A stretch of DNA of 64,000 nucleotides from Desulfobulbus propionicus. GTDB taxonomy: Bacteria; Desulfobacterota; Desulfobulbia; Desulfobulbales; Desulfobulbaceae. Numbering within the stretch: the stretch's first letter is position 1; every line of letters starts with the position of its first letter. The position numbers and the translations under genes are program-made. The notes under the pieces are model-generated. The model did not search any database. It was given only the letters and a program-made list of their open reading frames with translations, and was not told where the DNA came from. Positions 28,676 through 61,303 of the stretch are shown in pieces. The DNA lies in contig PDTC01000012.1 of NCBI GenBank assembly GCA_002748735.1, forward strand, positions 61,253 to 125,252, written 5' to 3'.

Positions 28676-28933
28676 CTATGAGATTTTTTCCGAAAGAAAA
28701 CTTGTCATTTTTTGCTTATCCAATGCGATATCTAATGGTATTAAGTTGCCTTCAAACAGTACATTTGTTGAGCTTTTGAAATTATACTTCCGGGCCTCTT
28801 CAGTGTCTGTCGTAAAAATGTTCAAATTAATTTTTTCTCCGAACATATTTTTCATTTCTTCGGCTATACCTATAGCCTTTTTGCATGACATTCAATTTGG
28901 ATTTCCACTGTGAAAAACTGTCAGTGCAGCCAT
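28676..28933 (-). CDS. Thioredoxin-like selenoprotein with U-M-S-C motif (in-frame TGA = Sec14)
   Basis: Thioredoxin-fold protein of 85 aa. Conventional calling would start at 28891, after the TGA, and lose the active site. Upstream in frame is MAALTVFHSGNPN, then TGA (28894-28892), then MSCKKAIGIAEEM. This gives U14-M-S-C17 at the tip of the first beta strand, where thioredoxins carry C-x-x-C. The ATG at 28933 has a strong AGGAGAG ribosome site; the start after the TGA has none. A perfect hairpin with loop AGGT begins 14 nt after the TGA. Later strands (NLNIFTTDTEEARKYNF and STNVLFEG) fit a glutaredoxin/thioredoxin-like fold. Partner unknown, but the DsrE-like selenoprotein follows 11 nt downstream. 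Confidence 0.9.
28862..28877 (-). promoter_or_regulatory. Candidate bacterial SECIS element of the thioredoxin-like gene
   Basis: Perfect 6-bp stem GGCTAT/ATAGCC with tetraloop AGGT on the minus strand, starting 14 nt after the TGA. The loop matches the GGU signature recognised by SelB in the E. coli fdhF element. Confidence 0.8.
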
Positions 28934-59112: not shown

Positions 59113-59179
59113 TTGCGTGATAGGGATGGGTCAAGTGGCCCTTCCTTTCCATGCGGTTCCAACCTTAATGGAGGTAACC

Positions 59180-59629
59180 ATGAGCAATGACAAGCTGAAA
59201 AAACTGCTCGCCGGACTCGGTGTAGCAAGCCTGCTCGGCTCTGGGGGAATATCCCTACCCGGAGCCCATGCAGCTGGGAGCGGCTGAGGTGCGAAACCCA
59301 GCGCAGGTAGCGCTGAAGCGAGTAAAGATGCCGGAGCAAGCGGCTGAGGTGCCAAGCCCGGTGCAGGTGGCACCGAAACGGTTATTAAAAAGAAACCCGC
59401 AGCAAGTGGCTGAGGCGGTAGTGCTGACAGCGCCGTGAGCGCTGCTGAAGAAACCGCGGAAAAGGCTGGAGATGCTGTCGAAAAGGTAGCAGAGCAAGCC
59501 GGAGACGCTGCTGAACAGGCTGTCGAACAGGCAGGAGAAGAGGCCAAGGATACAGCAGAACAGGCTGTTGAGGCTGCAGAAGAAATTATCAAAAAAAAGA
59601 AACCCGCAGGAAGCGGCTGAAGCGGTTAA
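59180..59629 (+). CDS. SbtA-like selenopeptide precursor with four in-frame TGA (Sec) codons
   Basis: The frame from ATG 59180 (GGAGG ribosome site) to TAA 59627 gives 149 aa if TGA at 59285, 59345, 59411 and 59618 are Sec36, Sec56, Sec78 and Sec147. All four lie in the same motif, S-G-U: GSGUGAKP, ASGUGAKP, ASGUGG, GSGUSG. The N terminus (MSNDKLKKLLAGLGVASLLG) looks like a leader. Between Sec78 and Sec147 lies an Ala/Glu-rich amphipathic helix. After each TGA, 11-16 nt on, stands a 6-bp hairpin with loop AGGTA, AGGTG, CGTGA or AGGTC. A radical SAM gene follows. This fits the SbtA/selenobiotic precursor type I recall from the thio(seleno)RiPP literature; product structure is unknown. Confidence 0.9.
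59299..59315 (+). promoter_or_regulatory. Candidate SECIS 1 of the selenopeptide gene
   Basis: CAGCGC/GCGCTG stem with loop AGGTA, starting 11 nt after the TGA at 59285-59287. Confidence 0.8.
59359..59375 (+). promoter_or_regulatory. Candidate SECIS 2 of the selenopeptide gene
   Basis: CGGTGC/GCACCG stem with loop AGGTG, starting 11 nt after the TGA at 59345-59347. The stem differs from SECIS 1 yet pairing is kept, i.e. covariation inside one gene. Confidence 0.8.
59428..59444 (+). promoter_or_regulatory. Candidate SECIS 3 of the selenopeptide gene
   Basis: CAGCGC/GCGCTG stem with loop CGTGA, starting 14 nt after the TGA at 59411-59413. The loop keeps GU but not the GGU of the others. Confidence 0.65.
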
Positions 59630-59636
59630 ACACGCC

Positions 59637-59653
59637 GCGTGCAGGTCGCACGC
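59637..59653 (+). promoter_or_regulatory. Candidate SECIS 4 of the selenopeptide gene (beyond the stop codon)
   Basis: GCGTGC/GCACGC stem with loop AGGTC, starting 16 nt after the TGA at 59618-59620 and lying past the TAA at 59627. Its presence argues that the last TGA is decoded as Sec. Confidence 0.75.
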
Positions 59654-59664
59654 AGATTACCTGT

Positions 59665-59704
59665 AGCAAAGCCGGCTTCCTTTGAGGTCGGCTTTGCTGT
59701 TTTC
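59665..59704 (+). terminator. Terminator/attenuator between precursor and maturase
   Basis: AGCAAAGCCG at 59665-59674 pairs with CGGCTTTGCT at 59689-59698, then GTTTTC. It would let the precursor message be made in excess over the maturase message. Confidence 0.7.
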
Positions 59705-59731
59705 TAATAACCTCAGGAACTGGAGCACCTT

Positions 59732-61303
59732 CTGAATCCAGCATGTCTAACCAGGTTTGAGGACCTCTTTCCCCTGTGTGCACAGACGCTTGCCCAGATA
59801 CATCCCCTGACAAGCCTTCCTGAACCAGAAGGTTTTCCTCCCTCCTCCTTGTGTACCCTCCTCCCCTGGCTCGAAGATCTTGCCGCCGTTGATCTTGCAC
59901 GGCACCGGATCGAAAACATCCCGGTACCACAACCAGTGGACCAGCTGCAGGTCAATCCGGCCCTGGAAATCGTTGAGGTTGCCTGGAACGGACTGAGCGA
60001 ACTAATTCGTACTGGTGATGCCGGAAAAGTGACTCCTGGGCAAGAGTTCATACTTGTCTACCGCCCAGGATCTAACGAAAAGGTGCGGATCGTCCAGACA
60101 AGCGGACACCAGTTGCTGGCCTTGAAAATGATCCTTGAGGGGCTTGACAGCCATGCCGTTGCCGCTGATGCAGCAACAAGTGTCAAGGTCATCGACGAGA
60201 TCCTCGATGCCGCTGCCAAAGAAGGCCTGCTCCTCAGCCCGGGATCACAGATTCGCCGCAGCGCCGACCTTGCAATGGCCGGCTGGAATGAGAATGTCCT
60301 CGCAGCCGAGACCTTCACCCTGCAGTGGCACCTGACTCAGCGCTGTGACCTCCACTGCCGGCACTGTTATGATCGCAGCGACCGAAACCCCATGAGCCTG
60401 GCACAGGGACTTGCCATACTGGAGCAGCTCCACCGATTTTGCCGAAGTCACCATGTTGCCGGCCAGGTAAGTTTTTCCGGTGGCAACCCCCTGCTTTCCC
60501 CGCATTTTGACCGACTCTACGAAAAGGCCGCAGCTCTTGGGTTGCTGACGGCGATCCTTGGCAACCCCACTGACAGGACTACTCTGGAGCGAATCATCGC
60601 CATCAATCCTCCAGCGTTCTTCCAGGTGAGCCTTGAAGGTCTGCAGCCACACAATGACTATATCCGCGGAGTCGGCCACTTTGCCCGAACCCTCGATTTT
60701 CTCGAACTACTCAAGGAATACGACATCTATTCCATGGTGATGCTGACCCTGACCAGGGCCAACCAGGCCCAAGTCCTGGATCTCGCCGAGCTGCTCAGGG
60801 GAAAGGTTGACCTGTTCACCTTCAATCGCCTCGCCATGGTTGGTGAAGGTGCGGCCCTGGCGTCGGTGCAGCCGGAGTCGTACGAGCAGTTCCTTCACGA
60901 CTACCTGCAAGCCGCCAGACAGGCTCCGCATATGGCCCTCAAGGACAACCTCTTCAACCACTGCCTGGAAACCACTGGATGCACCCTGACAGGAGGATGC
61001 ACAGGCTTCGGCTGTGGTGCTGCCTTTAACTTCCTCTCTCTCCTGCCCGACGGCGAGGTCCATGCCTGCCGTAAACTGCCCTCCCCTCTCGGCAACCTCC
61101 TCACGACCGATCTGAAAGACCTCTATCACAGTAAACAGGCCCGCCAATACCGGCAGGGTCCAGAACCCTGTAAAGACTGCTCGATTCGCCCTGTCTGTGG
61201 TGGCTGCATGGCGGTGGCCTACGGCTTCGGTCTGGATATCTTTAGCGAGCTCGACCCCTACTGCATGCGGTGCCACACTGCCACAGGGACACCTTCCTCC
61301 TGA
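59732..61303 (+). CDS. SPASM radical SAM maturase of the selenopeptide (SbtM-like)
   Basis: Radical SAM enzyme predicted to modify the upstream Sec peptide. The SAM 4Fe-4S motif is CDLHCRHCYDR (Cx3Cx2C). A C-terminal SPASM region has about ten Cys (GCTLTGGCTGFGCG, VHACRKL, PCKDCSIRPVCGGCM, YCMRC) for auxiliary clusters. Before the barrel, ILVYRPGSNEKVRIVQTSG and the following helices resemble a PqqD-like peptide-recognition winged helix. The first usual start is TTG 59849, but no ribosome site precedes it. Protein-like sequence (LNPACLTRFEDLFPLCAQTL, then ALARLE-type LPWLEDLAAVDLARHR) extends upstream in an open frame to 59711. I place the start at CTG 59732, six bases after GGAG; this is uncertain. 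Confidence 0.85.
   Translation: MNPACLTRFEDLFPLCAQTLAQIHPLTSLPEPEGFPPSSLCTLLPWLEDLAAVDLARHRIENIPVPQPVDQLQVNPALEIVEVAWNGLSELIRTGDAGKVTPGQEFILVYRPGSNEKVRIVQTSGHQLLALKMILEGLDSHAVAADAATSVKVIDEILDAAAKEGLLLSPGSQIRRSADLAMAGWNENVLAAETFTLQWHLTQRCDLHCRHCYDRSDRNPMSLAQGLAILEQLHRFCRSHHVAGQVSFSGGNPLLSPHFDRLYEKAAALGLLTAILGNPTDRTTLERIIAINPPAFFQVSLEGLQPHNDYIRGVGHFARTLDFLELLKEYDIYSMVMLTLTRANQAQVLDLAELLRGKVDLFTFNRLAMVGEGAALASVQPESYEQFLHDYLQAARQAPHMALKDNLFNHCLETTGCTLTGGCTGFGCGAAFNFLSLLPDGEVHACRKLPSPLGNLLTTDLKDLYHSKQARQYRQGPEPCKDCSIRPVCGGCMAVAYGFGLDIFSELDPYCMRCHTATGTPSS

Follow-up and report, generated by a model that had tools for sequence, protein, structure and literature searches.

A SbtA/SbtM selenopeptide gene pair of Desulfobulbus propionicus with four predicted selenocysteines, and the conserved SECIS-like hairpins of its family

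The sbtA frame and its maturase gene

Whether a reading frame interrupted by four stop codons can encode a modified peptide, and what such a peptide would do, is the question raised by a locus of Desulfobulbus propionicus in a 64,000-nucleotide stretch of contig PDTC01000012.1 (hereafter the window, whose position numbers are used throughout). The frame, sbtA (59180..59629, forward strand), runs from the ATG at 59180 to the TAA at 59627-59629 and encodes, when read through, a 149-residue precursor. Its translation bears out the first-pass annotation, which had described a single frame with four in-frame TGA codons, all in a Ser-Gly-U context. These codons occupy 59285..59287 (residue 36), 59345..59347 (residue 56), 59411..59413 (residue 78), and 59618..59620 (residue 147, the third from the C-terminus) on the forward strand, and the residues that follow Ser-Gly-U are, in order, G, G, G, and S. 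A Shine-Dalgarno-like GGAGG (59170..59174, forward strand) lies 5 nt upstream of the ATG. Because TGA is the stop codon of 14 of the 31 open reading frames (ORFs) that a greedy selection with a minimum of 200 codons gave for the window, a changed genetic code is not a likely reason for the internal TGA codons of sbtA; the four are most likely read as selenocysteine (Sec). A 153-residue ORF on the reverse strand (59131-59592) covers sbtA and could be listed by a standard gene caller instead, and the standard-code ORF list for the window holds no long sense ORF across the gene.

The leader of the precursor (residues 1-27; 59180..59260, forward strand), in which KLKK precedes the hydrophobic stretch LLAGLGVASLL, matches the whole of the NCBIfam model TIGR04081 (34.8 bits against a cut-off of 30.5; model positions 1-27 of 27), and the product of the downstream gene, sbtM, matches TIGR04082 with 645 bits (cut-off 350). 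The earlier assignment to SbtA/SbtM was thus correct, and the pair belongs to the known SbtA/SbtM family of thio(seleno)oxazole RiPPs, with which it shares the leader model, the maturase model, the gene order, and the SGU motif, its Sec residues lying in SG(U/C)(G/S) motifs with a SECIS after the TGA. The statement that no product of the family had been solved is out of date. A 2021 publication describes the SbtM reaction (Lewis et al., as recounted in PMC11002830); according to that account, Cys and Sec substrates both lost four hydrogens, and the Cys product was a thiooxazole by nuclear magnetic resonance (NMR). By analogy with that other SbtM, the enzyme of the window would catalyze the same reaction. 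For thiooxazoles, an absorbance near 305 nm is reported (PMC12668002). A 2026 review lists TIGR04081 under the name "Selenobacteriocin" (PMC13188914) and was the only literature found for that term or for TIGR04081/TIGR04082; searches for "selenobiotic" or multi-Sec peptides of deltaproteobacteria found none.

The gene sbtM (59732..61303, forward strand; start uncertain), identified by TIGR04082 and ORF reading, encodes a SPASM radical SAM protein, as had been proposed. Two Pfam domains, PF04055 and PF13186, scored over the cut-off, the SPASM domain lies at 61013..61264 (forward strand), and the three cysteines of the CxxxCxxC radical SAM motif (CDLHCRHC; 60344..60367, forward strand) are invariant in all 12 alignment rows. 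The PqqD-like region that the first-pass annotation had added to this description was not confirmed. By sequence comparison, the SbtM N-terminus shows no PqqD domain, although it may have a diverged fold of that kind: Pfam found no PqqD in 14 SbtM N-termini, profile-profile comparison (hhalign) of SbtM with 10 PqqD domains of relatives gave a probability of 1.7%, and the same genome yielded no PqqD match at an E value of ≤1e-5. Among solved structures, those closest in sequence are the radical SAM entries 5wgg, 6efn (SkfB), and 5v1q, the first and last of which we take to be CteB and SuiB, respectively. The only ATG, GTG, or TTG codon between the upstream stop and the main body of the model is the TTG at 59849, and residues conserved in the family begin upstream of it. 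A CTG at 59732 stands in the sbtM frame with GGAG 6 nt ahead, and an out-of-frame ATG at 59743 reaches a TGA after five codons. A rare start codon, recoding, and an assembly error are candidate explanations for the lack of a standard start in this region (59708-59849, forward strand).

Selenocysteine decoding and SECIS-like hairpins

Of the selenocysteine genes that the first-pass annotation had called for, selA (617 bits), selD (364 bits, with an internal TGA), and tRNA-Sec (72.6 bits) were found in the same genome, whereas selB was not. Its best match, at 103 bits, was a 921-residue frame under the cut-off, which was taken as IF2, and there was no match to the SelB winged helix. Among the 18 genomes searched, 14 contain selB and the host genome is one of the four that do not; since its assembly is only 85.6% complete, the absence is read as an assembly gap. 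Within the host's order, 201 of 249 genomes gave a tRNA-Sec match, as did 114 of the 130 genomes with SbtA; of the 16 SbtA genomes with no match at an E value of ≤1e-11, 11 fall short of 90% completeness and 5 reach or exceed it. The window also encodes a second selenoprotein, TsoX (28676-28933, reverse strand; HSGNPxU motif), which matches NF045809 with 138 bits (cut-off 52) and has its Sec TGA at 28894, followed by its own SECIS-like hairpin with an AGGT loop.

Each TGA of sbtA is followed by a SECIS-like hairpin with a 6-bp stem on the forward strand. Those of Sec 36 (59299..59315, loop AGGTA) and Sec 56 (59359..59375, loop AGGTG) start 11 nt past the TGA, that of Sec 78 (59428..59444, loop CGTGA) starts 14 nt past it, and that of Sec 147 (59637..59653, loop AGGTC) lies 16 nt past it, beyond the TAA. 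The hairpins with GU-containing loops reported by the first-pass annotation at 11 to 16 nt were thus recovered at 4 of 4 sites, against a background of 1 to 2%. With a stem of 5 or more as the threshold, the test was positive at 13 of 1,103 TGA trinucleotides on the forward strand of the window, the four sbtA sites included, and at 26 of 1,336 on the reverse strand, and shuffling of the stretches downstream of the four sbtA codons left a hairpin in 0.6 to 1.1%. In minimum-energy folds of 46-nt pieces, sites 1 and 4 form the hairpin, whereas a longer competing stem prevails at sites 2 and 3, which counts against the hairpins there. An Rfam search gave three matches, each under the gathering score. 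During translation, each of the four UGA codons would be read as Sec with the help of its own bacterial SECIS hairpin immediately 3' of it, the last of which would act from beyond the stop codon.

The hairpins recur across the family. The 149 distinct precursors contain 372 Sec sites; under a strict rule, a hairpin follows 287 of these and is absent at 85, compared with hairpins after 2.9% of 6,351 other codons and at 4 of the 19 sites with a Cys motif. At internal Sec sites, the hairpin lies inside the frame in 200 of 264 cases, and at near-terminal sites, it crosses or follows the stop in 87 of 108. In 188 distinct internal sites picked by protein motif alone, 96.0% of the stem cells were paired and 82.4% of the sites were fully paired, whereas 500 synonymous randomizations gave on average 70.0% paired cells (standard deviation, 1.2; maximum, 72.8%) and 9.7% fully paired sites (maximum, 17.0%). 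Sliding the 3' stem partner by -3 to +2 lowered the pairing to 17 to 49%. Since the pairing is far above that of the synonymous randomizations, the hairpin of the SbtA family is an RNA signal conserved beyond the constraint of the protein. The repeated A-G-S or A-V-S after each Sec would then be largely a coding shadow of the hairpin. In the sbtA genes of loci L054, L231, L240, and L309, the Cys codon of an SGC motif still has a SECIS-like hairpin downstream, and such hairpins may be relics of a change from Sec to Cys.

Selenocysteine number, spread, and genomic context

The 193 SbtA matches comprised 149 distinct sequences, of which 147 remained after removal of two cut or prefix copies. In these 147 precursors, the number of Sec residues was none in 6, one in 13, two in 54, three in 50, four in 20, five in 3, and six in 1, under a rule that takes a TGA outside the usual context as the end of the peptide; this applied to 41 of the 149, and the rule undercounts L079 at least. 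Four or more Sec residues were present in 24 of the 147, and the four of the window precursor fall within the ordinary range of the family. According to PMC13188914, prokaryotic selenoproteins mostly contain one Sec and a small subset contain two or three. The inventory in the same source gives the SbtA family 2, in a column that we take as the number of Sec, whereas the window precursor has four and relatives have up to six, so that members of the family hold more Sec than that inventory lists.

The first-pass annotation had proposed a search for orthologues with Cys at the TGA sites, and in relatives, the motif positions are indeed occupied by either Sec or Cys. Single Sec motifs are swapped for Cys in L054, L062, and L309. 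Among the six precursors counted as having no Sec, L155, L156, and L293 carry only Cys at their motifs, L232 and L307 have no motif, and L079 was cut by the counting rule.

In the host's order, SbtM was found in 133 of 257 genomes at an E value of ≤1e-60 (128 over the cut-off) and SbtA in 130 of 249 at an E value of ≤0.001, and nearly every SbtA match listed has an internal TGA. The two occurred together in 123 genomes, SbtM alone in 10, and SbtA alone in 7 (Fisher P = 5e-49, a value that ignores kinship and the different search sets of 257 and 249 genomes). In a sample of the phylum at a completeness of 90 or more, SbtM was present in 40 of 394 genomes. The best 80 of 325 named relatives include Desulfobulbaceae, Desulfocapsa, Desulfobacteraceae, Geobacteraceae, Desulfosarcina, and Nitrospirae, and cultured relatives with sbtM include Desulfogranum japonicum, Desulfofustis glycolicus, and Desulfobulbus alkaliphilus; alignment A3 comprised 22 of these 80 named loci plus the window, and alignment A4 comprised 13 plus the window. 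Of the 135 places with SbtM, 120 were reexamined with their flanks. SbtA lies within the fetched flanks of 82 of them, in 71 cases directly upstream on the same strand. The remaining 38 have no SbtA within about 6 kb, which counts against the reading favored here, and in some SbtM genomes, SbtA sits elsewhere in the genome.

Between sbtA and sbtM of the window, folding revealed a strong hairpin resembling an intrinsic terminator (59663..59700, forward strand; z, -6.1). Where sbtA stands directly upstream of sbtM (72 loci), the gap holds such an element in 51 cases, and 19 of 71 gaps had one after shuffling. Omission of the first 25 nt, where a terminal SECIS starts, again gave 51 of 72, against a shuffled mean of 18.7, and strong stems numbered 41, against 0.4 after shuffling. 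The cell probably produces more SbtA than SbtM.

Clustering of neighboring ORFs of 60-70 amino acids or more revealed no general partner gene, either near sbtM (120 loci and the window) or near sbtA in a further set of 40 loci, 39 of which were clustered and the last of which, L217, has no usable leader match. The recurring clusters are limited to close relatives and by eye resemble housekeeping genes, and no general metal gene was found beside sbtA or sbtM across the loci. A multicopper oxidase (L065) and a P-type ATPase with a SHOCT protein (L056) lie near sbtA in one genus; a link to copper through neighboring genes was rejected, as these metal genes are confined to that genus. Three neighbors that looked rich in His and Met matched no Pfam family.

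Predicted export and function

The leaders of the family resemble signal peptides. A hydrophobic 11-mer with a mean Kyte-Doolittle value of 1.6 or more occurs in all 149 SbtA leaders and in only 1 of the 145 remaining portions of these proteins (LLAGLGVASLL in the window leader; mean, 2.3), and the net charge ahead of it is positive in 144 of 149. By charge and hydrophobicity, this build fits a signal peptide. A lipobox pattern is found in 35 of the 149 leaders, compared with a mean of 13.5 after leader shuffling, and is doubtful in L042, L043, L045, L102, L105, and L317, where the cysteine is early or possibly part of a motif; the window SbtA itself has no lipobox. The A-x-A cleavage pattern was dropped as evidence of export, with 92 of 149 leaders positive against a shuffled mean of 106.7. 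Because this pattern is at the shuffled level, the support for export is lowered, and the build of the leader restores part of it.

With the genes, their family membership, the conserved hairpins, the Sec/Cys exchange, and the co-occurrence as observed, we consider it likely that SbtA is a decoded, ring-modified, probably exported, and most likely metal-binding peptide. SbtM, upon recognition of the leader, would act on the Ser-Gly-U-Gly motifs and take four hydrogens at Sec (or Cys), yielding selenooxazoles or thiooxazoles, and we infer that all four Sec residues would be inserted and modified. The leader probably doubles as a Sec-type signal peptide that would bring the modified peptide into the periplasm, and some relatives may be exported as lipoproteins. 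There, its soft selenium ligands would most likely hold a thiophilic metal such as Cu.

The nearest parallel is offered by the bufferins (Buf1/DUF2282 and Buf2), which in the account of PMC12452194 carry thiooxazoles derived from Cys that bind Cu in the periplasm, and in which, as would hold for SbtA, a signal peptide replaces a plain leader. Sec-type signal peptides are reported there for bufferins and oxazolins, some of which are predicted lipoproteins (PMC12636315). The bufferins differ from SbtA in belonging to another precursor family, in being modified by an MNIO enzyme rather than a radical SAM enzyme, and in using Cys rather than Sec; neither DUF2282 (Buf1) nor MNIO (DUF692) appeared in the Pfam search of SbtA and SbtM of the window. 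DybA, a hybrid of RiPP and lipoprotein (PMC12636315), has a precursor lipobox, as do some SbtA relatives, although it is made by MNIO chemistry and the window SbtA has no lipobox. On this analogy, we tentatively propose that SbtA is a selenium counterpart of the bufferins, that is, an exported and sometimes lipid-anchored protein with several selenooxazole sites, made by a radical SAM enzyme and binding soft metals in the envelope of an anaerobe. Copper buffering is reported for bufferins (PMC12452194), whereas for SbtA, the corresponding role is predicted. Titles of the literature found, with Lewis et al. 2021 outside that set, point to no earlier proposal of this kind.

The name under which the family is listed suggests another fate, namely, a small selenopeptide that is secreted, released by proteolysis, and used as an antibiotic or a signal. 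Processing to small products is common among RiPP precursors, which was counted in favor of such a peptide. It is distinctly unlikely here, however, as the clustered loci share no protease, exporter, or immunity gene among ORFs of 60-70 amino acids or more, the Sec motifs are distributed over the chain, one of them close to the C-terminus, and lipobox variants exist. The presence of up to six Sec residues in one short chain would suit a selenium store or a redox protein rather than a metal ligand, as would a pyridine-nucleotide-disulphide oxidoreductase with a thioredoxin domain (Pfam) near sbtA in L052 and similar ORFs in L055, L072, and L161, which are of the same genus. This neighbor is nevertheless confined to that one genus, and oxidation of the residue to a ring makes little sense for storage, which renders the store or redox role rather doubtful.

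The most skeptical reading, a decayed gene or a chance run of codons in which the TGAs are ordinary stops, could appeal to the absence of selB from the assembly and to the standard code, which offers the antisense ORF and no long sense ORF over sbtA. It is extremely improbable in view of the conservation of the family in 130 of 249 genomes, with internal TGA codons in nearly every match listed, the hairpins at the RNA level, the TAA past the last Sec, and the exchange of Sec and Cys.

The SbtA/SbtM family, in which one enzyme has been worked out, thus occurs in roughly half of the genomes sampled from the host's order. The numbers of Sec, the family-wide evidence for Sec sites at the RNA level, the spread in the order, and the proposal of a bufferin analogue in the envelope are what this analysis adds. 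If export and metal binding hold true, one type of ligand would be produced by two different enzymes to the same end, and selenium would act as a ligand in addition to its usual redox role.

Individual relatives depart from the build of the window precursor. One genome (G013) has four SbtA-like genes (L053, L230, L232, and L233), of which L232 has no Sec motif and L233 has one Sec close to its end. The precursor encoded by sbtA of L235 (1859 onward) has a long Met/Asp-rich repeat tail (MPMPDKGKMMDRDD), the end stretch of which contains His, a composition suggestive of metal binding.
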